Assembly: GCA_020435335.1 (NCBI GenBank)
Contig: JAGQZT010000016.1
Span: 1-48,560, forward strand
Length of the DNA stretch: 48,560 bases
Direction of reading: 5' to 3'
Source: Flavobacteriales bacterium
Lineage (GTDB): Bacteria; Bacteroidota; Bacteroidia; Flavobacteriales_E; Vicingaceae
Shown here: positions 2,681 through 47,495 of the stretch, piece by piece
How the letters are laid out: each line of letters begins with the position of its first letter
How positions within the stretch are numbered: position 1 is the stretch's first letter
The notes under the pieces: generated by a model
Told to the model about the DNA's origin: nothing
Databases searched by the model: none
What the model saw: the letters and a program-made list of their open reading frames with translations, nothing else
Program-made: the position numbers and the translations under genes

Positions 2681-2747
2681 AGGTGAAGTTTGTTAGCTAA
2701 AGTTAAAAAAAATTAACGAAAATTTCAATATTTAAAAGGATGAAAAG

Positions 2748-4883
2748 CTACAAATCAGCCTGAAAAGCGCCTTTTTCGGCCACATCCCACAACACAGCAT
2801 CCTGGGATTCCATCGTTTTTTTCCAGCGTTCACGGTGATAATTCGAATTGCTGGCATCAATCACAACGTATGGAGTCGTGAACATGCTCATGAGTGCTTC
2901 GGCATCGATGGGGGCATTTTTGGTGATGATGATGAGGTCGCATACCATTTTATGCCTGATTTCCCGGGCCTGGAAAGCCGGATCAATGATGACCACGCGG
3001 TAATCGTAGAATTGCAGGTAATTCCTTTTAAGAAATAGATGGGGGTTGTCTATCCTGATCAGGTTGGATAACCGGTGTTTGCCCGTTAAATGGCTCAGCT
3101 GCAGAAATTTTTCCTGCGCTACTCCTTGGTGGATCCAATTGTTTTCGGTGTGAAACAACAGTTTGCTGCGGTTGGTGGTTAGCTCCAGATCGGAAAACAG
3201 CACATTGTCCGTGCCATCGATAAAATTGAGGGCAGAATACCCGGGGATGTGATAGACCATGATGGTCTTTTGCTGATTGCGCTGGATGAGGTAGAAGAAG
3301 TGAGAAGCCAGGAAAATCAGCAGCGCGGTGCAGCCCATAAAGAAATAACGGAATTTCCGGTAAGCGATCAAAAGCAACATGGAACCGATTGCGAGATAGA
3401 TCAGCCAGGTATCGGTAGCCGTAAACCGGATCTGGTTTGAAACGGCATAGGGTAACCGGTCGATGGTCTGAACCGTTTCATTCAGCAATTTGATCAGGAA
3501 CTGAAGCCCTTGCCCTGAAATAGGACCTAGAACTGGAATGGCATGGAGGCAGATTGTCGCAATGCCAAAGCATAAGATGACCGTTGCCAGGGGAACAACG
3601 ATCAGGTTGGCTGCGATGAAGTAATTCGGGAACTGGTGGAAGTAATACAGCCCGAGAGGGAAAGTAGCCAGTTGAGCGGCTAAGGTAACCGCCGTAAGCG
3701 ACCAGATTTTCCGTAACGGCATCCACCGGAACTGAAACAGGTTGTTGATCCGGGGTTGGATCAGAACGATGCCCGATACGGCCAGGTAGGAGAGCTGGAA
3801 ACCCACATCCATCACCAAAAAGGGGTTGAAAATGAGCAGGAGAAAGGCAGAAGCCGCTAGCGTATTGAAAAAACCCGAATTCCGGTTGAGTGCCTTGGCG
3901 AGGATCACGAAACTGAACATGGTGGCAGCGCGCATCACGGAGGGAGATAATCCGGTGATCAGCGCATAGAACCACAGGATCAGAATCAGGATGCATCCCT
4001 TGATCCAACGCCCCTGTTTCCAATGATCCAAAAATACAAGGATCTTGCTGAAAATCAGAAAAATGATCCCAACATGCAATCCGGATACGGCCAGAACATG
4101 CATGGCTCCCGCACTGGAATAAGCCTGCTTCAGGTGGGCGTCCAGATTGTCCTTGTAACCCAGGATCAGCGCGGAAGCAACAGCCAGTTCATTGCCGTTC
4201 AGTCCCTGGTCCTCCAGTATCCCGATCAGGTGTTCCCGCAGAGCGGAAGCTACGTGGAAGATATTCAGGTTGGTTTCATGCCGGATCAGCTTCCAGTTCG
4301 TTGAACGCAGGTAAGTTTGCTGGTGAATCAGGTGGTAAGACAGGTATTTGCGGTAATCGAACTCATGGGGATTTTTCGGAGCGTCCACATGTTTCAGATC
4401 CGGTTCAAAAGACAGAACATCTCCCGGGATCAAAGTAGCGGAAAGGGAGTCTTTCTCGAGGTAAGCAATGATCGTTTCCCGGGTGGCAACCCACTGGTTT
4501 TGTTGGCGGAACCCCAGCAATTCGACCGTTAGCTTAACTGATCGTTCTTTCACAACCGGATTGCCTTTAACCTTTCCGATCAACAGGGCTTCATTCGACG
4601 ATTCGAAAAGGTTCAGTGAATTCCGGGAGGAATCATACTGTATACTGCTTAAAGAGGCTCCTGCAAACAAAAAACATCCGTAAAGTAATCCACCCATGAT
4701 CCAGCGGCGGGAATAACTTGTGTTGATGGATGAAACACGTAGCAACGCCAGGTATGCCAACAGGGATATCCCGAAAAAAGCCGGCATCCAACGGCCATGT
4801 GCTTCTGTGTTTACGGTTAACATGATTCCTGCAATAAAAGGGATCAATAAGCGTATTAATGGGATATTGTTTAAATTTATCAT
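2748..4883 (-). CDS. comEC: ComEC/Rec2-family DNA uptake channel protein
   Basis: A 711-residue polytopic inner-membrane protein. Residues ~1-190 contain two or three N-terminal membrane helices and a DUF4131-like soluble segment. The competence domain follows, with the family's ALILG and LAVSGLHVGI motifs near residues 240-275 and about eight more helices. In the family this forms the channel that passes single-stranded DNA into the cytoplasm. The last ~170 residues sit where a metallo-beta-lactamase domain is found in longer ComEC proteins, but no HxHxDH metal motif is visible, so this part looks degenerate. Short forms like this are usual in Bacteroidota. Only 27 bp separate its start from the divergent gene at 4911. 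Confidence 0.92.
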   Translation of the reverse strand: MINLNNIPLIRLLIPFIAGIMLTVNTEAHGRWMPAFFGISLLAYLALLRVSSINTSYSRRWIMGGLLYGCFLFAGASLSSIQYDSSRNSLNLFESSNEALLIGKVKGNPVVKERSVKLTVELLGFRQQNQWVATRETIIAYLEKDSLSATLIPGDVLSFEPDLKHVDAPKNPHEFDYRKYLSYHLIHQQTYLRSTNWKLIRHETNLNIFHVASALREHLIGILEDQGLNGNELAVASALILGYKDNLDAHLKQAYSSAGAMHVLAVSGLHVGIIFLIFSKILVFLDHWKQGRWIKGCILILILWFYALITGLSPSVMRAATMFSFVILAKALNRNSGFFNTLAASAFLLLIFNPFLVMDVGFQLSYLAVSGIVLIQPRINNLFQFRWMPLRKIWSLTAVTLAAQLATFPLGLYYFHQFPNYFIAANLIVVPLATVILCFGIATICLHAIPVLGPISGQGLQFLIKLLNETVQTIDRLPYAVSNQIRFTATDTWLIYLAIGSMLLLIAYRKFRYFFMGCTALLIFLASHFFYLIQRNQQKTIMVYHIPGYSALNFIDGTDNVLFSDLELTTNRSKLLFHTENNWIHQGVAQEKFLQLSHLTGKHRLSNLIRIDNPHLFLKRNYLQFYDYRVVIIDPAFQAREIRHKMVCDLIIITKNAPIDAEALMSMFTTPYVVIDASNSNYHRERWKKTMESQDAVLWDVAEKGAFQADL

Positions 4884-4910
4884 ACTTAATTACTCCAAAA
4901 TCCTTTTGTT

Positions 4911-5444
4911 ATGAAAAAAATGTTCCTGTTTTTGATCCTTTGTGCCACAACGTTTAGCGTCTTTTCCCAGGCCAGGGAAGAAGATGATTCGGGTTACCGA
5001 AAGGTTTACGCCATCATTCTTTCCAAGAATGGGGAGGTCAAACACATCATCAAGCAAGGAGAAGATATCAGTGCCGACATCGACGGTAAGAACGTAAACG
5101 GACGCTGGTTCTTTAAAGCGTATCCCGATATTGTAGAGATTGTGGATAGAAAAAACGAGGTAGTGGGTGAAATTGCGTTGAATCAGCAAGATCCGTTACA
5201 GATCAGTGTGCCGCAACCCAAGAGTGGAATGAGTGTTGGTATTGGTGTTGGCCCGGTATCTGTGTCCAACATGGGAGGCGGAATGCAATCGTTTAACATG
5301 GAAAAATGGAAGGCCGAAATCTCCGAACGGATGGAGACCAAAGAAGAAAAGCTCAAACGCGAGTATTACGAGCAAAAAGAGCAGGAGCGGCAAGCCAAAG
5401 AAGCAGCCAAAGCGGCCAAAAAAGCAGCAAAGAAATCCAAATGA
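4911..5444 (+). CDS. Small secreted protein with basic Ala/Lys-rich tail
   Basis: I do not recognise this 177-residue protein. It starts with a signal peptide (MKKMFLFLILCATTFSVFSQ). A compact region of about 75 residues follows, containing VYAIILSKNGEVKHIIKQG and NGRWFFKAYPD, which look like beta strands. Next comes a Gly/Met-rich stretch near 100-120. The final ~45 residues are highly charged and end in an Ala/Lys repeat, likely a coiled coil or flexible basic tail. It is divergent from comEC by 27 bp and ends directly against the convergent SpoIID-type gene with no spacer. Periplasmic or outer-membrane location is inferred from the signal peptide alone. Confidence 0.7.
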   Translation: MKKMFLFLILCATTFSVFSQAREEDDSGYRKVYAIILSKNGEVKHIIKQGEDISADIDGKNVNGRWFFKAYPDIVEIVDRKNEVVGEIALNQQDPLQISVPQPKSGMSVGIGVGPVSVSNMGGGMQSFNMEKWKAEISERMETKEEKLKREYYEQKEQERQAKEAAKAAKKAAKKSK

Positions 5445-6672: not shown

Positions 6673-7785
6673 TTATGAATTACTCAGGTAGGCAACGATC
6701 TTTTCGGCTGTCCTTTTGGATGCACCATACCCTCCTAATTTGGCTGCCAGCTCGTTGTATTCTCGGAGCATCCGTTCTCGGTTTTTGGGTTCAATTAATT
6801 TTTTTAACTCATTGATTAAGTTATCTTTATTGAAGTCATATTGAATTAATTCTTTAACTACTTCCTTGTTCATGACCAGGTTCACCAAACTCGCGTAATC
6901 GACTTTCACGACCATCATGGCGATCTTGTAAAAAATGTAATCCACCTTATAACAAACTACCTGAGGTACTTTGAATAAAGCTGTTTCCAGAGCTGCTGTT
7001 CCGGATGCCACAATGGCCGCATGTGCATGTTGCAGGAGGTCGTACGTTTTGTTTTCCACAATGGAAATGTCGTGGTTCATAAACCGGTGATAAAAGCTGA
7101 GTGGTTGCGACGGAGCTCCGGCAATTACAAACTGATAATCCGGGAAGAATTCGGTGATGGAACTCATCAGGGAAAGCATTTTGCTGATTTCCTGTTTCCG
7201 GCTCCCCGGTAAGATGGCAATAATGGGTTTCTCGCTTAACTGATGGTTTTTCCGGAATGCTACCGGATCGGATTTCGGATGATCTCCGATGATATCCAGT
7301 AAAGGATGTCCTACATAATCGACAGGATAATCGAATTTGGCATAGAAATCTTCCTCAAAAGGCAGGATCACAAACATTTTGTCGACATAAGCCTTGATCT
7401 TGAAACCCCGTTTTTGGTTCCAGGCCCAGATTTTCGGAGAAATGTAATAATACACCCGGATGTTGTTTTCATGAGCCCATTTGGCCATCTTCATGTTAAA
7501 ACCCGGATAATCAACCAAGATCAGCACATCAGGATTGAACTTCAGGATGTCTTGCTTGCAGAACTTGATGTTGTTCAGGATGGTGCGCAGATTCAGGATC
7601 ACCTGCTCAAAACCCATAAATGCCATTTCTTTATAATGCTTTACCAAAGTCGCACCCTGCTGCTCCATCAAATCACCGCCAAAGCACCGGATGTCGGCAT
7701 CCGGATCGGCAAGCTTCAGCTCTTTAACGAGGTAGGAAGCTTGTAAGTCTCCTGAAGGTTCTCCTGCAATGATGTAGTACTTCAT
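6673..7785 (-). CDS. lpxB: Lipid-A-disaccharide synthase
   Basis: A 370-residue GT19 glycosyltransferase. It joins UDP-2,3-diacylglucosamine and lipid X to form the lipid A disaccharide at the inner membrane. The start chosen, at 7785, places the family motif YIIAGEPSGDLQAS at the extreme N-terminus; a longer frame adds 20 residues unlike the family. Further family segments are FDYPVDYVGHPLLD, IAILPGSRKQEI and IVASGTAALETAL. It is the last gene of the surE operon, 7 bp after the small membrane protein. Length and motifs are complete. Confidence 0.95.
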   Translation of the reverse strand: MKYYIIAGEPSGDLQASYLVKELKLADPDADIRCFGGDLMEQQGATLVKHYKEMAFMGFEQVILNLRTILNNIKFCKQDILKFNPDVLILVDYPGFNMKMAKWAHENNIRVYYYISPKIWAWNQKRGFKIKAYVDKMFVILPFEEDFYAKFDYPVDYVGHPLLDIIGDHPKSDPVAFRKNHQLSEKPIIAILPGSRKQEISKMLSLMSSITEFFPDYQFVIAGAPSQPLSFYHRFMNHDISIVENKTYDLLQHAHAAIVASGTAALETALFKVPQVVCYKVDYIFYKIAMMVVKVDYASLVNLVMNKEVVKELIQYDFNKDNLINELKKLIEPKNRERMLREYNELAAKLGGYGASKRTAEKIVAYLSNS

Positions 7786-7792
7786 AGTGGGG

Positions 7793-8092
7793 TTACATAA
7801 AGAACATGTAGTAAAGGTAAAAAGCGCCGTAAATGAGTGTGGCATAAATCACACCCCGGGCGGATTTGTCTTTCTTCAGCCAGTAGAAGATGAAGAATAC
7901 CCCCAGGTTGAAGAATAAACACCCCTTCAGGTTATTCAGAATGGGGCTGAACATGGGGTTTTCGATCAGATACATCAGGTCCAGATTGGAGTAATGTTGC
8001 AGGATGAAATGCATGGCTGTGATCGGAACGATCAGTCCCAGGATCAATCCTACCAGTGTGTGGTTCAAGTGTTTAAATCCTTCTTTATACAT
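7793..8092 (-). CDS. Small three-helix membrane protein between surE and lpxB
   Basis: A 99-residue protein with three predicted hydrophobic helices: about residues 12-32 (VGLILGLIVPITAMHFIL), 56-70 (CLFFNLGVFFIFYWL) and 80-98 (VIYATLIYGAFYLYYMFFM). A basic loop KKDKSAR lies between helices two and three. It overlaps the end of surE by 8 bp and stops 7 bp before lpxB, so all three are translated from one message. I know no name for it. The tight position next to a lipid A gene suggests an envelope role, but that is inference from context only. Confidence 0.8.
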   Translation of the reverse strand: MYKEGFKHLNHTLVGLILGLIVPITAMHFILQHYSNLDLMYLIENPMFSPILNNLKGCLFFNLGVFFIFYWLKKDKSARGVIYATLIYGAFYLYYMFFM

Positions 8093-8855
8093 GGGCCAGG
8101 TAATTGATGGTGTTTAATGTTTCGTAATCGGTGATGTCGGGCTGAACAGGAACGATGGAAACATAGCCGTTGTTCAATGCCCATTCGTCCGTATCCGTGC
8201 CGTCATCGTCAATCTCAAACTTGCCCGTTAGCCAGTAATAGGTTCTGCCCATCGGATCCGTGCGTTCGTCGTATTCTTCACGCCAGTTGCCTTTGGCCTG
8301 ACGGCAAACTTTACTGCCCAGGATCAGATCGTAGGGCAGGTTAGGGATATTAACGTTTAAACAGAGGGATTTATGGTGGTTTTGTTCCAGAATTGCTTGG
8401 ATGATTTTTCTGGCGTATGCCTGGGCAGCACTGAAATCAGCATCGATCGAATGATCAAGCAGGGAGAAACCGATCGAAGGAATATTCTCCAGGCTCCCTT
8501 CTACGGCTGCCGACATGGTTCCGGAGTAGATCACATTAATGGACGAGTTGGAACCGTGATTGATCCCGGAAACAACCAGATCGGGGAGGCGGGGCAGCAA
8601 CTTGTTAACCGCAATTTTTACACAATCTACAGGTGTGCCGCTGCAGGCATAGGCCGGAGTTCCGTCCACATCGGTTTTACGGACATGCAGGGTGGAGCTG
8701 ATGGTAATGGCATGCCCCATGCCGCTCTGTGGCTTGTCGGGAGCAACCACCACGGTTTCGGCAAACTCATTGGCGACTTCCAGTAAGGCTTTGATGCCGG
8801 GAGCCGTAATGCCGTCGTCGTTCACGACCAGAATTAACGGTTTCTTGATACTCAT
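8085..8855 (-). CDS. surE: 5'/3'-nucleotidase SurE
   Basis: A 256-residue cytosolic metal-dependent phosphatase that removes phosphate from nucleoside 5'- or 3'-monophosphates. The N-terminus has LVVNDDGITAPGI with the metal-binding Asp pair (residues 13-14). The conserved APDKPQSGMGHAIT, CSGTPVDCVK and SGINHGSN segments follow. The start at 8855 was preferred over a frame six codons longer because it places NDDG at the normal distance. It heads a three-gene operon with the small membrane protein and lpxB. Confidence 0.95.
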   Translation of the reverse strand: MSIKKPLILVVNDDGITAPGIKALLEVANEFAETVVVAPDKPQSGMGHAITISSTLHVRKTDVDGTPAYACSGTPVDCVKIAVNKLLPRLPDLVVSGINHGSNSSINVIYSGTMSAAVEGSLENIPSIGFSLLDHSIDADFSAAQAYARKIIQAILEQNHHKSLCLNVNIPNLPYDLILGSKVCRQAKGNWREEYDERTDPMGRTYYWLTGKFEIDDDGTDTDEWALNNGYVSIVPVQPDITDYETLNTINYLAHV

Positions 8856-8870
8856 GTAAAGGTTTTTTCG

Positions 8871-8878
8871 CAAATTTA
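8871..8878 (-). promoter_or_regulatory. -7 promoter box of surE operon
   Basis: TAAATTTG on the minus strand matches TAnnTTTG and ends 15 bases before the surE start. I see no clear -33 TTG at the expected distance. Confidence 0.45.
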
Positions 8879-8927
8879 CAGCTTATTAATGACATTTTAG
8901 TTAGCTTTAATTCCTCAACCTCAAACC

Positions 8928-9701
8928 ATGTATAATATCTTAGTGCCAACCGATTTTTCTGAGTTTTCCGACTTTGCGTTGCAGTACGGGACATTTCTGG
9001 CGAAGAAGAATGACAGCAACCTGTATATCCTGCATATTGTTCGGAATGAGGAGAAATACGAAGCGGCACAGAAAAAATTAAAAGCCATTTCAAAGCTTCC
9101 GTCCCTGAGAGAAGTGAAGGCCCACATCGTTCTGGAAAAGGGAAATAACGTCAGCAAAAATATCAATAAAGTGGCTGAAGAACTGGAGGTGAAACTGATC
9201 ATTATGGGATCCAACGGGGTTTCCAATGTGGAGGAAATGATCCTGGGGAGCAATACCGAAAACGTGATCATCAAAACCCGTTTCGATGTGCTGACGGTGA
9301 AGCATGAGATGAACAGCCAGGAGTTGAATACCATCCTTTTTCCGTCCAACTTCAAGCAGGAGGCCTACAATGTGTTCGAATCCGTGATCAAGACTGCCAA
9401 GGCTTTCAACGCGTGTATCCACTTATTGAAAGTTGGTAAGGATACGCCGAAAGACCGCGAACGGGTCAACGACTTTGTGAGTTATTTCCAGCTTGAGGAA
9501 CAGGGAATCGATTATTGCATCAACATCCTGGATAACAGTTCCCTGGAGCTGGGCATCCTGAACTATGCGATGAACAATGACATTGATCTGATCGCAATTG
9601 GTACGCACGGCAAAGGAGCCATCAAAAAATTACTGCAGGAAAGTACCTCTCAAAATCTGGTAAGAGATGCTTTCAGGCCGGTGTTGACCATGCGTTTTTA
9701 G
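8928..9701 (+). CDS. Universal stress protein with two UspA domains
   Basis: A 257-residue cytosolic protein made of two UspA folds. Domain one opens with ILVPTDFSEFSDFALQYG and has the ATP-binding pattern G-x2-G-x9-G in MGSNGVSNVEEMILGSNTEN. Domain two starts near residue 145 with the weaker TILFPSNFKQEA and ends with IGTHGKGAIKKLL, so nucleotide binding there is less certain. Members respond to stress or starvation, often by dimerising. A near-consensus -7 box (TAGCTTTA at 8902-8909) precedes it, divergent from surE. Its TAG stop overlaps the TAA of the convergent fhs gene by four bases. Confidence 0.92.
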   Translation: MYNILVPTDFSEFSDFALQYGTFLAKKNDSNLYILHIVRNEEKYEAAQKKLKAISKLPSLREVKAHIVLEKGNNVSKNINKVAEELEVKLIIMGSNGVSNVEEMILGSNTENVIIKTRFDVLTVKHEMNSQELNTILFPSNFKQEAYNVFESVIKTAKAFNACIHLLKVGKDTPKDRERVNDFVSYFQLEEQGIDYCINILDNSSLELGILNYAMNNDIDLIAIGTHGKGAIKKLLQESTSQNLVRDAFRPVLTMRF

Positions 9702-11383
9702 GATAATCCTGAAATTTTTCCGTTATTATCGATCGTCATGCCTTCGGAAGCCGGAGTAGCCGGTAAACCAGGCATACGCATCATGTTTCCTAAGATCGGG
9801 ATCACGAATCCTGCTCCGGCAGCCACTTCGAATTCACGCACATTTACCGTAAATCCGGTCGGCCTTCCGATCAGGCTTTCGTTATCGGAGAATGACTTTT
9901 GCGTTTTAGCCATGCATACAGGCAGGTTCTGTAATCCGAGTTCTTCCAGTTTTTTCAGGTCGCTGTTCGCCATTTTGGAATATTCAACCCCGTCGGCACC
10001 GTAAATCTCTTTGGCAATACGCTCGATCTTTTCCTTAATGGTTAAGTTCCAGTTGTACAACGGATGGAAATTGTTGCGTCCTGATTCCACTTCTTTTACC
10101 ACCGCTTCCGCCAGGTCGGTCATGCCGTTACCACCACGGGCAAATCCCTGGGCAACGATTGCCTGAACACCCATTTTGGCGCATTTATCCTGAATCAGCT
10201 TAACTTCCTCTTCCGTATCCGAAGGGAATCCGTTGATCGCTACAACCGGATTCAGGCCGAATTTTTTACAATTCTCAATGTGTTTCTGGAGGTTGGCAAA
10301 TCCTTTCTCTACACGGTCCACGCTTGGGGTGTTGTACTCTTCTTTTTGAGCGCCTCCGTGGTGACGAAGTGCTCTGATCGTAGCAACCAGTACCAGTGCT
10401 TTCGGTTTGAGTCCGGCGGAAACACATTTAATATCCAGGAATTTTTCAGCACCCAGATCGGCACCAAAACCGGCTTCCGTTACCACATAATTAGATAAAG
10501 AAAGCCCCATTTTTGTTGCAATGATGGTGTTTGTTCCCTGAGCAATGTTAGCAAATGGCCCGCCGTGAATGATGGCCGGATTTTCCTCTAAGGTCTGAAC
10601 CAGATTCGGTTTGATGGCATCTTTCAATAAGATGGCCATGGCATTTTCAGCCTTCAGGTCACGGGCATAAACCGGTTTTTTATCGAAGGTGTAGCCAATG
10701 AAAATATTACCCAGTTTTTTCTTCAGGTCTTCGAAATCTTCAGCCATACATAAAATGGCCATCACTTCCGATGCAGGGGTGATGTTGAATCCGTCTTCCC
10801 GCGGGATACCGTTGGCAGTACCACCCAGTCCGATGGTAATGTGACGCAAAGAACGGTCGTTCATGTCCATCACGCGTTTCCATACAATGGTTCGGGGGTC
10901 AATGTCGAGGCTTCTGCTCTTGCTTTGGATGTTGTTGTCGATAAGGGCAGATAACAAATTGTTTGCCTTCTCTACGGCCGAGAAATCGCCCGTAAAGTGC
11001 AGGTTAATGTCTTCCATCGGTACCACCTGGGCATAACCGCCTCCTGCGGCTCCACCTTTAATCCCGAATACAGGGCCCAAAGAAGGTTCGCGCAACACCA
11101 CCGTAGCTTGCTTGCCGATTTTATTCAAACCTTCCGTCAAACCGATGGAGGTGGTTGTTTTTCCTTCTCCGGCAGGAGTAGGCGTTAAGGCTGTAACCAA
11201 AACCAGGTTGTTTTGATCGATCTTTTTCTTGTCAATCAACGATAAAGGCAATTTGGCTTTGTACTTTCCGTACAGTTCCAGTTCTTCCGTGTTAATACCT
11301 AGTTTTTCAGCAACGGTGTTGATGTGAATCATTTCATTGCCTTGAGCAATCTCAATGTCTGATGGAAATTTTGTTTCTGCCAT
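9698..11383 (-). CDS. fhs: Formate--tetrahydrofolate ligase
   Basis: A 561-residue cytosolic enzyme that makes 10-formyl-THF from formate, THF and ATP, feeding purine synthesis and one-carbon metabolism. The P-loop-like TPTPAGEGKTTTSIG is at residues 67-81. VVLREPSLGPVFGIKGGAAG and the C-terminal RMPGLPATPASEGM are also family signatures. Length is normal. It is transcribed alone, convergent with the universal stress gene. A near-consensus -7 box (TATCTTTA, one mismatch) lies about 20 bp upstream of its ATG. Confidence 0.97.
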   Translation of the reverse strand: MAETKFPSDIEIAQGNEMIHINTVAEKLGINTEELELYGKYKAKLPLSLIDKKKIDQNNLVLVTALTPTPAGEGKTTTSIGLTEGLNKIGKQATVVLREPSLGPVFGIKGGAAGGGYAQVVPMEDINLHFTGDFSAVEKANNLLSALIDNNIQSKSRSLDIDPRTIVWKRVMDMNDRSLRHITIGLGGTANGIPREDGFNITPASEVMAILCMAEDFEDLKKKLGNIFIGYTFDKKPVYARDLKAENAMAILLKDAIKPNLVQTLEENPAIIHGGPFANIAQGTNTIIATKMGLSLSNYVVTEAGFGADLGAEKFLDIKCVSAGLKPKALVLVATIRALRHHGGAQKEEYNTPSVDRVEKGFANLQKHIENCKKFGLNPVVAINGFPSDTEEEVKLIQDKCAKMGVQAIVAQGFARGGNGMTDLAEAVVKEVESGRNNFHPLYNWNLTIKEKIERIAKEIYGADGVEYSKMANSDLKKLEELGLQNLPVCMAKTQKSFSDNESLIGRPTGFTVNVREFEVAAGAGFVIPILGNMMRMPGLPATPASEGMTIDNNGKISGLS

Positions 11384-14649: not shown

Positions 14650-16227
14650 CTAGTTGATAATCAACTTTTTAATACTGGATCCGGCAGGACTCGTAAATCG
14701 AACAAAATAAATGCCACCGGCCAGACCGGTTACATCCAGTTGGGTTATGGTTTGTTTTGGCCTGATCTGCTTCACTAGTTGTCCCCGGCCATCCATCAAA
14801 CTGACGGATGATTCTTCATTAAGCGGATTGGCTCCCAGATCGATCAATACCTGGTTCGTAGCAGGGTTAGGGCTCAATGTAAATGGCATCACATCATTTG
14901 CCAGATCGAGCACGCTGCTGCTGCCGCTCACCAGATCCAATCGCTGAAACCAGATGTTCAGGAAATTATTCCGGGTGTCTCCCCAAACCGTGTATGCAGT
15001 ATCGTTAACCAGCTGAACACACATAAAGTCGTTACCACTGTTTTCCAGTACGGTGTTGTAGCTGATCAGAGAATCCGTTATCGGGAAATTGGCAGAGAAG
15101 GAAGTGGAGTCTTTCCACCTGATTGCTCCCCAGATCTCCGAAGGGGTTTTGTAGGTTGAATCGGGAGCATTTCGGCGATCTCTCCAGGTGACGATCAGAT
15201 CACCGTCATAGTCGAAATCGGCCCAGATCAGATCCTGCATCCTGTTGTTCGCAATCGGGTCGTCATTTACCCGAACGGGTGTGCCCCAGCTTGCTCCGGC
15301 GTTGAGGCTTTCAATGATGTACACATCAATGTCGCCATTGTCAAAGTTTGGGTAAGCAAACAGGAGGTGATTGGCATCCGCCGGATTGCTGATGAGTAAG
15401 TAGCCCTTTTTAGGCAATGTATCATTGTTGGTGGTAGCGGTTTGAGCTACGGTATTGTACGTAAATGTGCTTCCTGCAGATGTGGAAGAAGCAACAAACA
15501 TTTGGGCAAACAAGCTTTGACTAACTACATAGCTCGGATATACGGCATGAAAGGTGCCATCTGCTGATACACAAGGTGTAGGCATAGGCTGTGGAATGAA
15601 ACTTCCGGCCAGGTAATTGGCCGTGTCCAGGTACCTCCACGGTTCGAAGCTGGTGCCGCCGTTTACCGATTTGATGAAGTAGGGGTTGTATGGAGGCGCT
15701 ATGGGCCCCAGTACTTTAGGGTTCATCGTGGTCACGTAAATATTTCCGTCATAAATGCCTCCCGAATTATCGATAGCCATCCATGGTCTGTCAAGTGGGT
15801 ATTGGGTGCCGTCCGCAAAAGCATTGATCACTTCAACCGGTGTGCCCCAGCTCAAACCGCCGTCGGAAGATTTGGCTACGTAAACAGCGCCGGCAATCGG
15901 ACTCAGACTGTAGTCGATGTAGCAAAGAAAAACGTTCCCGTTATTGTCGAAAGCCAGTGAAGGGTCGGCCGACTGATACGTGCTCACGACATGAGGAATG
16001 TTGGTGGTCGTGCTCCAGGTATTTCCGGCATCGGTACTAACCCGCGTTTTGATCACGGTTTTGTTTCCCAGTTTAAATCCGATCCACGCAACTACCAGGT
16101 GCTTGGGATTGGAAGGATTAACGGCAATGTAGGGTTCTCCATCGAAAACAAGGCCGTTAGAGAGGTTTGTGTTTTGAGCCAGAGCAAAAAAAGGGAAGAA
16201 CAGGGATATGAATAAGAGAAATCTCAT
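14650..16227 (-). CDS. Asp-box (BNR) repeat protein with T9SS type A sorting domain
   Basis: A 525-residue secreted protein. After the signal peptide (RFLLFISLFFPFFALAQ) it carries Asp-box repeats of the sialidase-propeller type: STDAGNTWS, SSDGGLSWG, SVNGGTSFE and SLNAGASWG. A beta-propeller of about 400 residues is expected. The catalytic Arg triad of sialidases cannot be assigned, so no sugar-cleaving activity is claimed. The final ~80 residues (FTLSPNPATNQVLIDLG to SIKKLIIN) form a T9SS type A C-terminal sorting domain. The gene overlaps the upstream subtilase gene by one base (TAATG), which suggests coupled translation and matched surface delivery. Confidence 0.85.
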   Translation of the reverse strand: MRFLLFISLFFPFFALAQNTNLSNGLVFDGEPYIAVNPSNPKHLVVAWIGFKLGNKTVIKTRVSTDAGNTWSTTTNIPHVVSTYQSADPSLAFDNNGNVFLCYIDYSLSPIAGAVYVAKSSDGGLSWGTPVEVINAFADGTQYPLDRPWMAIDNSGGIYDGNIYVTTMNPKVLGPIAPPYNPYFIKSVNGGTSFEPWRYLDTANYLAGSFIPQPMPTPCVSADGTFHAVYPSYVVSQSLFAQMFVASSTSAGSTFTYNTVAQTATTNNDTLPKKGYLLISNPADANHLLFAYPNFDNGDIDVYIIESLNAGASWGTPVRVNDDPIANNRMQDLIWADFDYDGDLIVTWRDRRNAPDSTYKTPSEIWGAIRWKDSTSFSANFPITDSLISYNTVLENSGNDFMCVQLVNDTAYTVWGDTRNNFLNIWFQRLDLVSGSSSVLDLANDVMPFTLSPNPATNQVLIDLGANPLNEESSVSLMDGRGQLVKQIRPKQTITQLDVTGLAGGIYFVRFTSPAGSSIKKLIIN

Positions 16228-18821
16228 TATTGCTTGATGATTTTGTGTGCGACGCTGCCTTTGTTATTCATGAACTTTAGCAGGTACACGCCATGGCTTA
16301 ACGTCGACAGGTCTATGGTTTGTTGTTGTTGGGTCACGACACGAGACAACAATTGTTTGCCCATCAGGTCGTAGAGTGCGATGGATGCGTTTTCCAGGTT
16401 GTTGTTACCCGTGTTTATGGTTAACTGATTGGTGGCCGGATTCGGGAAAATGCTCAACTGCTCCAGGTGGTGTTCCTGAACGGTGAGGGGTTCGATTCCC
16501 TCATAGACCCAGATGTTGTCCAGGTAGATGTTGTTCCCGCTTTTATTGTAGGTCTCGAATTTCAGGATCACATCGTTGTTCGCGTACGCTGTAATGTCAA
16601 TGTGTTCGGTGCGCCACTCATGAAAAAATGCCGGCACGAATTGAGGGGAAATCGTGTCCTGCGTTTCGAGGCTGTCGCCACCCACTTTGTAGATGAGGTC
16701 GAAGTTGTTTCCGCAATCGGAAGAGATGTAAACCATGAGCGTATCGGCAATTACCTGATGGATCATGTTGTAGGCCAGATCGAACCGCACGAATAAAGAA
16801 TCGTCGTTAGGAAGCGAGATCCGGGTAGAGATCAGATCATCCAGTTGACCCGAACCGGTGTAGTCGTACATCTGTACAGTAGCGGAATGAGCACCCCAGG
16901 GTAATCCTGCTGTCATGGCCGTGTCCCAGGTTGTTATTCCGTCAGGATTCAAAATCAGCCATTCGGAGCTATCGATGCGCATCAGTTCAAAATCTTCTTT
17001 ATAAGGAAGAGTTGTGTGTAAATCCCGGATGTTGAAACGGAATACGCGCTGGTTGTTGATGTAGTCACATTCTGTTTTGGCCGTGTCTATATCGGCCTTA
17101 ACAATTAATTCGTAGTCACCTGTACTTTGGGCTGTAATCGAAGGCAGGTTCACGGAAGTAGTATCTCCGGAAACCAAGTTTCCACTCCAGGCAAAACTTT
17201 GAGTCGGCTCATTGTTCAGGCGGTAGGTAATGTTAGCTGAAGTGATCGTGCTGTCTCCTAAATTTTTCAGGAGGATTTTAGGGGAGATCATGTTGTCGCA
17301 ACGAATGGTTTCCGTTGGGGATAAGATTTTACTGATGGTCAGGTCGTACTTGAACTGAGTAGGGGGAGCAGGGGTGTAGGTCAACGCCAGCGAATCAAAA
17401 GCCGCTTTTACATCGATCATGCCCATACCGTAAGTGTTGTCTTCACCGGGAATTCCCAGATCGACAGCCGAATAATACAGAGCCAGTAATATTTCTTCAC
17501 CGGTAGCATTAGGGAAGGCTTCCTTAAGGAGGAGAACCGCACCGGAAGCGTGCGGACCGGCCATAGAGGTTCCCTGGTAATTGGCGTAATTGTTCTGGTC
17601 AACAGAAGACCGGACGTTAACACCCGGCGCGGCAACTTCCGGTTTGATGGACAGGGAGCCGGTTACCGGGCAAACGGTTGGACCTCTGCTGGAGAATCCT
17701 GCAATCGGATTTCCTGCGGATTGGGCATTCAAAGCACCGACGGTGAACGTATTTACCAAGCCGGTACTTACATACTGCGGTTTACCGATTGTTGTGTCAT
17801 TCGAACCTTCATTTCCGGCGCTGAATACGTTGGCGATCCCGGCCGCCTCAATGGCATCGAACATCTGGGTGACATATCCGGCGCAGATGCTGGTGTCGAG
17901 GTGTTCGGCAATTCCCCAGGAGTTGTTGATCACGTCGGGAATATCGTTGGTGGTGTTGGTGTCACCATCAGGGTTCAAGGCAAACTGAAACACATCAATG
18001 TATTCAGGTAAAGGTTTGATATCGTTCAGGTTAGTAACGATCGGATCGGCCACCATGAAATAGGCATTAAAGGCAACGCCGATGGTATCACTCGTTAACG
18101 GGTCAAGTCCCAGTACTGTTCCGGCGGTGTGTGTACCATGCGAACCGTTCTTGTCTACCGGAATGGGCGAATCGATTCCGTTCCAGGCTTGGCTTAACGG
18201 TTGGTAATTTCCGAGCCAGTTGTCGGTTAATGCCGGATGGTCTTTCCATACACCGGTATCGATGTTGTAGAGTTTTCGGGCTTTTCCGGTGTAGCCCATC
18301 GCCCAGAGCTTGTGAGCATTGATGGAGATCAAACCAGGTTCGGCAGCTCCCACGGCTTTGGTTACAGTGCCCTTGCTTTCCATGATGTCGATCGGTTTAC
18401 CTGTAAAGTGGTCATACAATTCGATGTAATCGATCTCCGGCATAAAGGCGAGTTGCAGGATGATGTCTTTCCGGGCTTCAATGGTCATCATGTTGATGAC
18501 CCAGAGCGATTGGTAGCTTTTTACTTTGTTGGTGTTTTGGTTCAGGAAATGGATGATACCTGACTGGGTATTGTTTGCCAGTTGCATGGATTTCCGGATA
18601 ACGGTTTTAGCCCGCTCATCTAAACTTACATGCCTGTCTTTTAACTCCTGATTCAAACTGATATGATCTACCTGATCCGCCAGTACGATATTGACTTTCA
18701 GATAATCCTTATTCGATGCTGCGATTAATTGATCATTGAGGCTGTTTGTTAAAGTTGCTGTTTGAGCAAAAGTTAACATGCCGGAAACAAGCAGACACAA
18801 GGCGATAAACGTTCTTTTCAT
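16227..18821 (-). CDS. Subtilisin-like (S8) secreted protease with T9SS sorting domain
   Basis: An 864-residue exported serine protease. The signal peptide covers residues 1-20 and a propeptide-like region runs to about 160. The S8 domain has all key residues: Asp188 (NIDTGV), His228 (GSHGTHTAG), the oxyanion Asn337 (SAGNEG) and Ser419 (GTSMAGP). A CARDB-like or Ig-like region follows, then a jelly-roll-like segment ending YLDNIWVYEG. The type A sorting domain (LSIFPNPATNQLTI to SVAHKIIKQ) is at the end. The start at 18821 fits the signal peptide better than one seven codons upstream. It heads a four-gene operon. Confidence 0.93.
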   Translation of the reverse strand: MKRTFIALCLLVSGMLTFAQTATLTNSLNDQLIAASNKDYLKVNIVLADQVDHISLNQELKDRHVSLDERAKTVIRKSMQLANNTQSGIIHFLNQNTNKVKSYQSLWVINMMTIEARKDIILQLAFMPEIDYIELYDHFTGKPIDIMESKGTVTKAVGAAEPGLISINAHKLWAMGYTGKARKLYNIDTGVWKDHPALTDNWLGNYQPLSQAWNGIDSPIPVDKNGSHGTHTAGTVLGLDPLTSDTIGVAFNAYFMVADPIVTNLNDIKPLPEYIDVFQFALNPDGDTNTTNDIPDVINNSWGIAEHLDTSICAGYVTQMFDAIEAAGIANVFSAGNEGSNDTTIGKPQYVSTGLVNTFTVGALNAQSAGNPIAGFSSRGPTVCPVTGSLSIKPEVAAPGVNVRSSVDQNNYANYQGTSMAGPHASGAVLLLKEAFPNATGEEILLALYYSAVDLGIPGEDNTYGMGMIDVKAAFDSLALTYTPAPPTQFKYDLTISKILSPTETIRCDNMISPKILLKNLGDSTITSANITYRLNNEPTQSFAWSGNLVSGDTTSVNLPSITAQSTGDYELIVKADIDTAKTECDYINNQRVFRFNIRDLHTTLPYKEDFELMRIDSSEWLILNPDGITTWDTAMTAGLPWGAHSATVQMYDYTGSGQLDDLISTRISLPNDDSLFVRFDLAYNMIHQVIADTLMVYISSDCGNNFDLIYKVGGDSLETQDTISPQFVPAFFHEWRTEHIDITAYANNDVILKFETYNKSGNNIYLDNIWVYEGIEPLTVQEHHLEQLSIFPNPATNQLTINTGNNNLENASIALYDLMGKQLLSRVVTQQQQTIDLSTLSHGVYLLKFMNNKGSVAHKIIKQ

Positions 18822-18839
18822 AGGTTCTGGTTTGAGTTT

Positions 18840-18847
18840 CAAATATA
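18840..18847 (-). promoter_or_regulatory. -7 promoter box of the subtilase operon
   Basis: TATATTTG on the minus strand matches TAnnTTTG and lies 18 bases before the subtilase ATG. No clear -33 TTG is seen at the usual distance. Confidence 0.5.
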
Positions 18848-43771: not shown

Positions 43772-46700
43772 CTATTTTCCACCGGGTCTGACAGTTTTCG
43801 TAGGACTGGTTTTTGTTGTTTTTCCTGATTTTGCATTACCACCACAAACACCTTGCGTATCTCCATGTGCCTGATGGGTAGGCCATTCAGAAACAGGAAT
43901 AACAATGGTTTGGGGTTTACTGTTCTTGCCTGGCGGGGTATGACAAATGGTTATTTTATCATTTCCTGAGTTGCCGCCATTGTTATTTCCGCCTCCTGAA
44001 TTTCCACCGCCATTGTTTCCTCCCGGGTTAGCAGCAGGCTGGCAGGATCCTTTCGTGTCACCGTGAGCTTCATGAGCTGCCCATGCCGATTCCGGAATTT
44101 CGATGGTTTGCGGATTGCCGGTATTTCCCGGTGGGATGTGGCAGATTGTGATCTTTTTGTTCGATCCTCCGCTAGTATTCCCACCAGGGGTTGTCGCAGG
44201 GGCACATGCTCCTTCGGTATCACCGTGAGCCTTGTGTGCCGGCCAGGCGGAAACAGAAATTTCAATGGTTTGTGGATTATTCTTGTTGCCTGGAGGGTAG
44301 TGGCAAATGGTCATTTTACCATTACCCGGGTCGCCGGAGTTGCCACCGGTAGAGCCGCCGGGCGTATTTGACGGTGGTTCGGTGTTCGATGGCTGGCAAA
44401 TCCCTTTTGAATCTCCGTGAGCTTCATGTGCCGGCCACGCTGATTCGGGAATCTCAATGGTTTGCGGATTACCCGGATTACCAGGCGGAATGTGACAGAT
44501 CTTTATTTTTTTGCTGGTTTGTGCATTCGGATCATCTCCCGGAGTTGTAGTCGGGGTACATTCTCCTTGCGTGTCGCCATGTGCAGCATGAGCCGGCCAG
44601 GCGGATTGAGGAATCTCTATGGTTTGCGGATTCCCTGTGTTTCCTGGCGGATAATGACAGATCTTGATCTTATTGTTGGAGCTTCCTCCTGTACCGGGCG
44701 TTCCTCCTCCGGTATCTTTCGGTTTTATAGGACATGCCCCTTTGGTATCGCCGTGAGCAGCATGAGCAGGCCAATCGGTTTCCGGAATAACCATCGTTCT
44801 CGATGGGATTGTGGTGCCGGCAGGACTGATAATCGGTGAATCCACTACATGATGGCAAATGGTGATCATCTTCACAGGAGGCGTATTTCTACAGGCTCCC
44901 ATTTGATCACCGTGCGATTTATGGATAGCCCATTGCGACTCGGGAATGTTCAACGTTTGGGTTTGTCCCGGTTTACCTGGAATGTTGTGACAGATGGTAA
45001 TCTGTTTTTCAGGACATGCACCTTTGCTGTCGCCATGTGCAGCGTGAGCAGGCCATGCTGATTCGGGAATTTCGATGGTTTGCGGGTTATTGGCATTTCC
45101 CGGAGGAAGATGGCAGATCGTGATCTTTTTCTCTTCGACCGGACAGGCTCCTTTGGTGTCGCCATGGGCAAAATGGTTTGCCCATTCACTTGCCTTGATG
45201 GTCATATTCACCTTTACATTGCCTTGCTTGTGACAAATCTCAATCATTTTTTCAGGGCAAACACCTTTACTGTCTCCGTGTGCCTGATGTGCCGGCCAGG
45301 CTGATTCGGGAATTACAATGGTTTGCGGATTATCCGGATTGCCGGGAGGTAAGTGGCAGATCGTGATCCTGTTCTCTTGTTTCGGACACTCTCCCTTCAC
45401 ATCTCCATGGGCAGCGTGGATCGGCCAGTCGCTCTCTTTAATGGTCATGGTAACTGTTGTATTGCCCTGATTATGGCAGATTGTTATGTTGTTAACAGGT
45501 GCAGGACAGGGGCCTTTTGTGTCGCCATGTGCGGCATGGCTGGCCCATAAGGACTCGGTGATCGAAATATTCTCTTTTTGACCTGTTGCCGGATTGGTAT
45601 GGCAGATGATAAAGGATGCCTCAGGACATTTTCCTTTGCTGTCCCCATGTCCAAAATGTTCGTTCCATCTGAATTCAGGGATAACCATATTAACATTGGT
45701 GTTGCCTTGCTTATGGCAGATGTCGATCATAGGTTCCGTTGCCGGACAGGTGCCCTGATAATCTCCGTGGGCCTGATGCACCAGCCATTCATTTTCAGGA
45801 ATGGTCATGGTGATGCGCTTGTTTCCGGATTCCGGTATGTGGCAGATCGTGATCATGTTAACTTGTTTCGGGCAATCCCCTTTGGTATCGCCATGGGCAG
45901 CATGAGTTGCCCAGTCTTTTTCATCAATGGTAATCACCTGGTTGTTGTGGCAGATGGTGATCAGTTTTTTCTCAGCACAGGTGCCCAAATAGTCGCCATG
46001 TGATTGATGGATGTTCCAGTCGGATTCGGGGATGCTGATGGTTTGTGTTTGCCCCGGCTTGCCTGGAATGTTATGGCAGATCGTGATGTTTTTTGCGACA
46101 CAATCACCCTGCAAATCGCCATGAGCCTGATGTTCCTTCCACTCGGAAGCTTTAATGGTTAAATTGGTGAACGTGCCATCCAGTTTTTTATGGCAGACTT
46201 TCATGGTTCTGCTGTCTGTGCAGGACAGATTAAAGGTTTTGGTATCAGAGAAATTTCCGCTCCTTGCCACAATCTTAAAGCTGTTGTTTCCTTCTTTCAG
46301 GTCGACTGTGGATTTAAACGTTGGTGGAGTAAAGAAATATTTGTAGGAAGCCACCTTGGTTCCATTTTGATAAAAGTCTATATCACTTTGGTTGTATACG
46401 TTTTCAATTTTAGCTGTAATTTCTACCTGACAATTAGGAGCGTAAAAATCAGTGCCGGTAGGATTCGTTAAGGTAATAACAGGTTTTTTCGGTGTTGTAG
46501 TGATCGGGGTGATCGGGTCGGGAGTCACCGGATCGACAGGAGGTACATATGTAGTCGGCTCATAGTCATGTACAATGCTAAAGATAAGTCCCAGGGATGT
46601 ATAATGGTACATATCCTGAATAAAACTCGGATCACCATTGTCAATTTCCTGTCCGTCGAATAAATCGGTTTGAGGTAAAGAAATCTTGTGTTCCAGCGCG

Positions 46701-47368
46701 AAATCAACGCCCGGAGCAAGTCTGAAGCCTAATCCAACACCTACGGAAGGAGTGAATACGGTCGTGTTGTAGCCCGGATTAACCAGTTCGGTCTCAAATT
46801 CACCATCCTGAAAGTTCTTGATTTCATCAACGGATGGGTTGGAAGAGAGGAGCAGGCTGTAGTCGTAGGGGGCTCCCGAAAGATCTTTCTGGTCTGTTTC
46901 AACCAGGTAATTGGTAAAACCGCCACCTACATACAAGTAAAATAAAATGCCATGATTTCGATACAATTTATTCCACTTCAGCATGGCTTCAAGAGAGAAC
47001 TCATTGAGTTTGGTCCTGTTGTTCAAAAACAAAGGGGCATTACTATAGTTAAAAGAAGTGTCGGAAACACCATTAAGCGCATTATTACTGATAATACCTT
47101 CGTGCAATAAGTTGTTATAACCGGTAGTTTTACCATTTAAAAAACGGCCTCTTAGCGAGAATCCGAAAAAACTGCTTTGCTTTTGGTAAACCGCATATTC
47201 AAGTGTGGCCCCAAATCCAAAGTTATACACGTCATGCCTTACATCGGCCTTCTGGCAGAGGCCACCCACGTTAACACCGAGGTGCCACCGACCGATACCG
47301 GCCGATAAATACTGAGAGAATGTCTGTTGAGCAAATAATAGAACAAGAATCAGGTAGAATTTTTTCAT
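43772..47368 (-). CDS. Exported protein with barrel-like N-terminus and 17 Cys-His...HGD...Cys modules
   Basis: A 1198-residue exported protein. Residues 1-19 are a signal peptide (KKFYLILVLLFAQQTFSQ). Residues ~20-275 resemble an outer-membrane beta barrel (GIGRWHLGVNVGG, FFGFSLRGRFLNG, VGVGLGFRLAPGVDFALEHK). A Pro/Thr linker and an Ig-like segment (NCQVEITAKIENVYNQSDID) follow to about 385. From Cys392 to Cys1175 there are 17 modules. Each has I/V-C-H, a variable arm, W-x2-H-x2-H-G-D-x2-G-x-C. Short loops join modules 1-12; Gly/Asn/Thr-rich linkers join 12-17. The end is basic and lacks a T9SS sorting domain. It is the first gene of a three-gene operon. Metal or disulfide function is inferred; the family's role is not known. 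Confidence 0.85.
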   Translation of the reverse strand: MKKFYLILVLLFAQQTFSQYLSAGIGRWHLGVNVGGLCQKADVRHDVYNFGFGATLEYAVYQKQSSFFGFSLRGRFLNGKTTGYNNLLHEGIISNNALNGVSDTSFNYSNAPLFLNNRTKLNEFSLEAMLKWNKLYRNHGILFYLYVGGGFTNYLVETDQKDLSGAPYDYSLLLSSNPSVDEIKNFQDGEFETELVNPGYNTTVFTPSVGVGLGFRLAPGVDFALEHKISLPQTDLFDGQEIDNGDPSFIQDMYHYTSLGLIFSIVHDYEPTTYVPPVDPVTPDPITPITTTPKKPVITLTNPTGTDFYAPNCQVEITAKIENVYNQSDIDFYQNGTKVASYKYFFTPPTFKSTVDLKEGNNSFKIVARSGNFSDTKTFNLSCTDSRTMKVCHKKLDGTFTNLTIKASEWKEHQAHGDLQGDCVAKNITICHNIPGKPGQTQTISIPESDWNIHQSHGDYLGTCAEKKLITICHNNQVITIDEKDWATHAAHGDTKGDCPKQVNMITICHIPESGNKRITMTIPENEWLVHQAHGDYQGTCPATEPMIDICHKQGNTNVNMVIPEFRWNEHFGHGDSKGKCPEASFIICHTNPATGQKENISITESLWASHAAHGDTKGPCPAPVNNITICHNQGNTTVTMTIKESDWPIHAAHGDVKGECPKQENRITICHLPPGNPDNPQTIVIPESAWPAHQAHGDSKGVCPEKMIEICHKQGNVKVNMTIKASEWANHFAHGDTKGACPVEEKKITICHLPPGNANNPQTIEIPESAWPAHAAHGDSKGACPEKQITICHNIPGKPGQTQTLNIPESQWAIHKSHGDQMGACRNTPPVKMITICHHVVDSPIISPAGTTIPSRTMVIPETDWPAHAAHGDTKGACPIKPKDTGGGTPGTGGSSNNKIKICHYPPGNTGNPQTIEIPQSAWPAHAAHGDTQGECTPTTTPGDDPNAQTSKKIKICHIPPGNPGNPQTIEIPESAWPAHEAHGDSKGICQPSNTEPPSNTPGGSTGGNSGDPGNGKMTICHYPPGNKNNPQTIEISVSAWPAHKAHGDTEGACAPATTPGGNTSGGSNKKITICHIPPGNTGNPQTIEIPESAWAAHEAHGDTKGSCQPAANPGGNNGGGNSGGGNNNGGNSGNDKITICHTPPGKNSKPQTIVIPVSEWPTHQAHGDTQGVCGGNAKSGKTTKTSPTKTVRPGGK
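43844..46207 (-). repeat. 17-unit coding tandem repeat
   Basis: Seventeen units, each about 105-200 bp, encode the module with invariant Cys-His, Trp, His, His-Gly-Asp, Gly and Cys. Units 13-17 are the most alike (PPGN..NPQTIEIPESAWPAH pattern); units 1-7 are more diverged. Units 2 and 11 share NIPGKPGQTQT, and units 5 and 9 share a short KQGN..VNM arm, so multi-unit segments were copied. Every unit reads without a stop or frameshift. Confidence 0.93.
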
Positions 47369-47440
47369 AATGCTTGGTTTGTTGGTGCTTGTTTTCAAAT
47401 ATCATTCCAAGAATAATGAGAATGAATCAACAAAGGCTTA

Positions 47441-47475
47441 AAAATAAAAAAACGCCTTGATAATTCAAGGCGTTT
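47441..47475 (-). terminator. Rho-independent terminator of the sigma factor gene
   Basis: Stem AAACGCCTTGA / TCAAGGCGTTT with loop TAAT; on the minus strand it is followed by a long U-rich run. It begins about 20 bases after the sigma factor stop codon. A near-consensus -7 box (GATATTTG) of the repeat-protein gene lies to its left near 47395..47402. Confidence 0.93.
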
Positions 47476-47495
47476 CTTCGATATTGTTGACAAGT

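Follow-up and report, generated by a model that had tools for sequence, protein, structure and literature searches.

The described systems that come closest to the protein presented here are the outer-membrane barrels of the OmpA family, inverse autotransporters such as intimin and invasin, classical C2H2 zinc fingers and the metal-binding motif of MopE (PF11617). The protein is encoded by an array gene on the minus strand of a stretch of 48,560 nucleotides (hereafter the window) of a Flavobacteriales bacterium (assembly GCA_020435335.1, contig JAGQZT010000016.1, positions 1 to 48,560), and it carries 17 copies of a short module rich in Cys and His behind a predicted β-barrel and an immunoglobulin (Ig)-like domain. 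With the OmpA family it shares eight predicted strands, the best fold match in the PDB, long outer loops combined with short turns and a Pro-rich linker after the barrel, but PF00691, the OmpA peptidoglycan-binding domain, was not found in it by the Pfam scan and the Ig domain, the 17 mini-domains and a basic tail are present instead. The barrel probably derives from OmpA-type barrels and works like them; because the peptidoglycan-binding domain is missing we do not file the protein as a member of that family. Inverse autotransporters show the same succession of an N-terminal barrel, Ig domain(s) and C-terminal modules, but the array protein has 8 rather than 12 predicted strands and no LysM domain was found in it. 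The module itself resembles a classical C2H2 zinc finger in its strand–strand–helix order and in the two His at the helix end. It differs in that the Cys-x2-4-Cys knuckle is absent (one Cys is located in strand 1, the other after the helix), the His are spaced H-x2-H and not His-x3-5-His, the Cys behave as a disulfide, the module is exported and there is no match in sequence or fold. None of 79 modules matched a Pfam zinc-finger model, and on its sequence the module is not filed as a zinc finger, since it lacks the defining Cys knuckle. The MopE motif is likewise a short repeated motif of secreted bacterial proteins and one Myxococcales genome encodes a protein that contains both it and the module, but the two motifs are different and PF11617 has no match in the array protein of the window.

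We suggest, with a probability of roughly one half, that the array protein is a periplasmic stalk of metal-plus-disulfide beads on an OmpA-type outer-membrane barrel. The barrel would be followed by one Ig-like domain and then by 17 mini-domains in a chain, each about 28–43 residues long and built from a β-hairpin and a short helix. A disulfide from the first Cys (C1, at the end of strand 1) to the second (C2, after the helix) would close the mini-domain, and one metal ion, for which Zn(II) is on general grounds the likeliest candidate, would be held in a His3(Asp) shell by H1 beside C1, by H2 and H3 at the helix end and by the Asp just after them; metal and disulfide would jointly stand in for a hydrophobic core. 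The chain would lie in the periplasm as a sturdy stalk, interchangeable with the Ig-domain stalks of relatives, and its basic tail would probably touch an anionic envelope surface, e.g., peptidoglycan or inner-membrane lipid. If true, this means that an OmpA-type tether can be built from metal beads and that many exported proteins now called “hypothetical” would obtain a chemistry. A bolder version, which we regard as doubtful, sees in the module a widespread unnamed extracytoplasmic finger domain whose disulfide and His3(Asp) metal share the holding of the fold, multiplied here into a metal-dependent periplasmic tether whose stiffness or anchoring would answer to the metal and redox state of the envelope.

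All modules follow the consensus C-H…W-x2-H-x2-H-G-D-x2-G-x-C. A preliminary description of this DNA had reported 17 modules with a fixed order of Cys, His, Trp and Asp, comprising 34 Cys and at least 51 His. Our recount gives the same 17 modules with C1, H1, W, H2, H3, G, D, G and C2 invariant in each, 34 module Cys (the three further ones at 38, 313 and 383 lie outside) and 51 conserved module His. Together the modules occupy residues 391–1175, the first twelve closely joined by linkers of 6–10 residues, modules 13–17 by flexible linkers of 19–31 residues rich in Gly, Pro, Asn and Ser. DNA identity between the module cores is 50–82%. Since synonymous differences between modules are near saturation (mean proportion, pS, 0.81) and nonsynonymous differences are few (mean pN 0.25), the repetition is to be regarded as old and not as a young product of slippage, with each module under purifying selection.

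For module 14, aligned with 79 modules, AlphaFold predicts a strand (3–8), a second strand (18–23) and a helix (24–32) at a mean predicted local distance difference test score (pLDDT) of 92, and a longer N-terminal model shows the same elements in modules 1 and 2; this prediction, which had been proposed as a check, gives a confident β-β-α mini-domain. The putative ligand set is lost as a block: of 354 unique modules, 332 have H1, H2, H3 and D complete, 14 have none of them and 8 are intermediate, against 0.002 complete losses expected under independence. An earlier set of 305 modules contained 9 complete losses, and the 10 modules in it that keep at most one of these residues were equalled in none of 20,000 shuffles. 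The 14 modules without the set come from several array proteins and from one distant non-Bacteroidota genome (L267), and all 14 retain both Cys. The opposite case is a small secreted paralogue (L116, 4362–4562) that has lost both Cys and retained H1/H2/H3/D; its gene lies directly downstream of that for a normal secreted protein with one module. Because each group can be lost while the other is kept, we infer two separate units per module, a C1–C2 disulfide and a His3(Asp) site. Where the preliminary description had offered a metal ion, a disulfide-closed loop or both for each module, this separate behaviour supports “both” best, with metal and disulfide still putative. Lost His/Asp positions mostly become Leu, Met, Ile, Tyr, Phe, Gln or Ala, a mainly hydrophobic and aromatic refilling that suggests a structural metal, and the His3(Asp) site most likely binds one. 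These natural variants, in which the His/Asp block or the Cys pair disappears as a unit, act like ready-made mutants and make the idea directly testable on a short peptide. An apparent loss of C2 in viral-contig and other variants was rejected as a further case, as in most of them this Cys only comes later, after a longer loop.

In relatives the full array gene is found at the same locus with 43–60% identity and about 7–17 modules; one genome of the same family (G036) has an array protein of 791 amino acids. The order of module types 1–6 is constant across the genus and the middle of the array has been remodelled by block duplication. Some relatives have metal-less modules at fixed array positions, e.g., at position 3 in L205, L206 and L210. 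In the last of these (G035:C49, array gene 2264–4918) a pattern search finds 11 modules, 5 of which (at positions 3, 4, 6, 7 and 9) lack the whole His/Asp set, and the block 3-4-5 is duplicated. In another array (L207, G030:C1, gene 7414–10476) a neighbouring module pair was amplified several times with near-identical search scores, apparently a recent expansion. Such variation in module number, together with so many Cys and conserved His in one envelope protein and with the Myxococcales protein that combines module and MopE motif, could also be read as a high-capacity envelope sponge that stores or buffers Zn, Cu or Ni, with room for about 17 ions in each protein and a copy number selected for capacity. 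We consider this unlikely: single modules are usual outside the bacterial family of the window, modules without a metal site that are kept at fixed positions would be needless for a pure sponge, the refilling of lost sites suggests that these lie in the core and are not exposed, and no metal transporter or regulator occurs among the neighbours scanned (sigma factor, methyltransferase, CoA-transferase).

The stalk reading draws on the barrel homologues as well. Those with many Ig domains have few modules or none (9 Ig domains and 1 module in L066, 9 and 0 in L211, 8 and 0 in L212), and the remaining ones have one Ig domain and about 8–17 modules. Among the 17 barrel homologues whose C-terminal end is not cut off by the contig edge, Ig and module numbers are inversely correlated (rho −0.71, p 0.0015), and this trade-off fits interchangeable beads on a stalk.

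The model of the N-terminal part has eight strands (residues 28–40, 47–61, 68–84, 114–132, 141–161, 200–218, 221–230 and 253–265). Foldseek against the PDB finds OmpA as best match (E 6.5e-8), then Ail, NspA and OmpX, and PF13505 reaches 2.1e-6 and 28.5 bits, just under its cutoff of 28.7 bits. The barrel-like N-terminus noticed previously is thereby confirmed as a predicted OmpA type, and its proposed periplasmic face is a point beyond that description. The strand connections comprise 6, 6, 29, 8, 38, 2 and 22 residues, so that long ones (29, 38, 22) alternate with short ones (6, 8, 2); with both termini in the periplasm, as in OmpA, the long connections would lie on the outer side. A homologous barrel (L214, genome G052) is followed by PF00691 (4.5e-12). 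Neither PF18962 nor PF13585, the sorting domains of the type IX secretion system (T9SS), matches the array protein. Three other proteins of the window, a subtilase (16227–18842), a BNR-repeat protein (14650–16227) and a PKD protein (311–2680), carry T9SS sorting domains; a T9SS is therefore probably present in the organism, apparently without being used by the array protein. Because of the OmpA-like loop pattern, the PF00691-bearing homologue and the missing sorting domain, we place the array in the periplasm and not on the surface with good, though not high, confidence. A surface location is demanded by the view of the array as an adhesin or display stalk that is transported to the cell exterior in the manner of inverse autotransporters and binds partners or surfaces. 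The order of barrel, Ig domains and long repetitive C-terminal part as in intimin and invasin would suit it, as would modules in a T9SS cargo (L120) and in pilin-like proteins (L126) and the patchy presence with clean empty sites, but a barrel of 8 and not 12 predicted strands with OmpA, OmpX and Ail as best matches, a C-terminus that should be periplasmic and the lack of a sorting domain in a window that does encode T9SS cargo make an adhesin no likelier than the sponge.

A disulfide-free zinc site of the C2H2 kind, with Cys and His as joint ligands (Cys2His2 or Cys2His3), is more improbable still. The near-equal invariance of Cys and His and the order of strands and helix, like that of classical fingers, would agree with it, but the 14 modules and the paralogue described above show the Cys pair and the His/Asp block to be separate units, and for this reason the Cys are probably not metal ligands. 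Moreover, the side chains of C1 and H1, which are adjacent on the same strand, should face opposite ways. Additional Cys appear together at columns 20 and 34; all four modules in which the Asp is replaced by Cys also carry a Cys at column 20, which suggests a second disulfide and hence an oxidising site. Least probable of all is a His/Asp set that serves as hydrogen-bond core, catalytic set or heme or other ligand site. Three His and an Asp would be capable of other chemistry, but a domain this small (about 35 residues) and this often repeated (17 copies) is unlikely to be catalytic, and the mostly hydrophobic or aromatic refilling fits a structural metal.

Several points weigh against the periplasmic metal-bead stalk. 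The number of modules, their conservation, the block losses, the domain order and the synteny are read directly from sequence, and the module fold and the barrel are predicted, whereas the disulfide, the metal and its identity, the periplasmic side, the stalk role and the tail contact we infer. The 14 block losses come from few lineages and are not independent events, and the statistic ignores kinship; the same is true of the correlation between Ig and module numbers, in which one gene was counted twice (L050 = L208). The barrel model was built on 7 sequences only and has a mean pLDDT of 71. Seventeen modules might, when fully extended, reach beyond the periplasm, and the single modules of T9SS cargo and pilin-like proteins are clearly extracellular, which makes a surface location of the array possible.

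Whether the module belongs to a known family was searched widely. No model of Pfam, NCBIfam or PHROGs covers it in the protein of the window, and 79 diverse modules gave no match in Pfam and NCBIfam; the best hit of all these scans (0.023) was at chance level. The PDB yielded chance hits only by sequence and nothing below E 2.5 by fold. Text searches of the literature for the motif strings found none, and general searches nothing relevant, most subscription literature being outside their scope. A characterised family that would already explain the module was not found in these libraries and the PDB, and the domain appears to be unnamed in Pfam, NCBIfam and PHROGs (InterPro and CDD were not among the libraries searched). 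These libraries have no entry for a domain that combines a length of about 40 residues with eight near-invariant positions and whose hosts range from archaea to Myxococcota and Bacteroidota.

Single modules had already been mentioned as parts of other secreted proteins with no assigned function, and they do occur in many phyla, mostly exported and with no family match. They are the usual form outside the bacterial family of the window, arrays of about 7–17 being found within it. Including the genome of the window, modules occur in 27 genomes of a phylum-wide sample of 395, mostly one per genome, and in 52 of 146 genomes in a sample drawn around Myxococcus xanthus; carriers include Planctomycetota, Chloroflexi, Omnitrophota, Gemmatimonadetes, Nitrosopumilus and Pacearchaeota. 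An origin from phages or plasmids was rejected, as there was no match in phage records and a single plasmid match, on a haloarchaeal plasmid. By a simple hydrophobic-stretch rule, 74 of 90 module-containing open reading frames (ORFs) look signal-bearing versus 115 of 538 neighbouring ORFs. Some hosts are small secreted proteins with little beyond one module. Other hosts are pilin-like or pseudopilin-like proteins with the module in their interior, from Bacteroidota of the Ignavibacteria type and from Omnitrophota (L084, L124, L126, L080), the protein of L126 having an N-methylation motif. In two Chloroflexi module proteins (L104 and L095) a second, related-looking motif, CHATGS...GHATHPGDIIPAP...C, is found near residues 260–335 and may represent a sister family. 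One module (L037, G120:C11) has an acidic DxDGD stretch like an inserted calcium-type loop between HGD and the second Cys, and a deltaproteobacterial genome (G467, that of L101) shows an unusual expansion of single-module proteins with 25 module matches over about 20 contigs.

The array gene is flanked by a sigma-70 gene and a thiopurine-methyltransferase-like gene. In two genomes (G011 and G017) the sigma-factor gene lies directly beside the methyltransferase gene, and because of these empty sites the array gene is regarded as accessory and not tied to its neighbours; a functional tie to the methyltransferase was rejected, its gene being present in array-less genomes too. Among 60 relatives the barrel is present in 13 of 13 same-family genomes with an array (the own genome included), and the other family members have neither array nor barrel, save that G017 gives a weak barrel-like match. 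When the search was widened, 17 of 46 family genomes were found to have modules.

The listed ORF (43772–47398, minus strand) opens with TTG at 47398. The start is likely the ATG at 47368, in agreement with the coordinates given previously, and M1 and Q19 are invariant among homologues. Where the Ig/cadherin-like domain is repeated in homologues it is present in 3–12 copies. Terminator-like sites are no more numerous in the region than in shuffles.

Table 1. Features of the array gene and its surroundings (positions in the window)
Feature	Position	Strand	Basis or remark
Array gene	43772..47368	minus	1198 amino acids; ATG 47368 to stop 43772-43774; orthologues at same locus
Signal-peptide-like N-terminus (MKKFYLILVLLFAQQTFSQ, residues 1-19)	47312..47368	minus	sequence; hydrophobic helix 2-13 in model
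Predicted 8-stranded OmpA-type β-barrel (residues 28-265)	46574..47287	minus	model strands, Foldseek, PF13505
Pro/Thr-rich linker (residues 266-296)	46481..46573	minus	sequence; low model confidence
Ig/cadherin-like domain (residues 297-383)	46220..46480	minus	PF12733 0.0015, below cutoff; β-strands in model
Module 1	46100..46198	minus	
Module 2	45977..46081	minus	
Module 3	45872..45955	minus	shortest, 28 amino acids
Module 4	45746..45847	minus	
Module 5	45626..45721	minus	
Module 6	45506..45607	minus	
Module 7	45386..45481	minus	
Module 8	45257..45361	minus	
Module 9	45143..45238	minus	
Module 10	45014..45118	minus	
Module 11	44891..44995	minus	
Module 12	44732..44860	minus	longest, 43 amino acids
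Module 13	44558..44662	minus	first one preceded by a long flexible linker
Module 14	44396..44500	minus	used for fold prediction, pLDDT 92
Module 15	44204..44308	minus	
Module 16	44042..44146	minus	
Module 17	43844..43948	minus	
Basic C-terminal tail (GGNAKSGKTTKTSPTKTVRPGGK, net +6)	43775..43843	minus	charge kept in same-family orthologues
Terminator-like hairpin between upstream sigma-factor gene and array gene	47446..47479	minus	15 pairs and T run

In one orthologue (L209, about 10754–11089) the array frame is broken near its end by an apparent frameshift, and the last module and the basic tail are found in another frame, due to an assembly error, a frameshift or decay. With this exception the C-termini of the orthologues are short basic tails with a net charge of +3 to +7.

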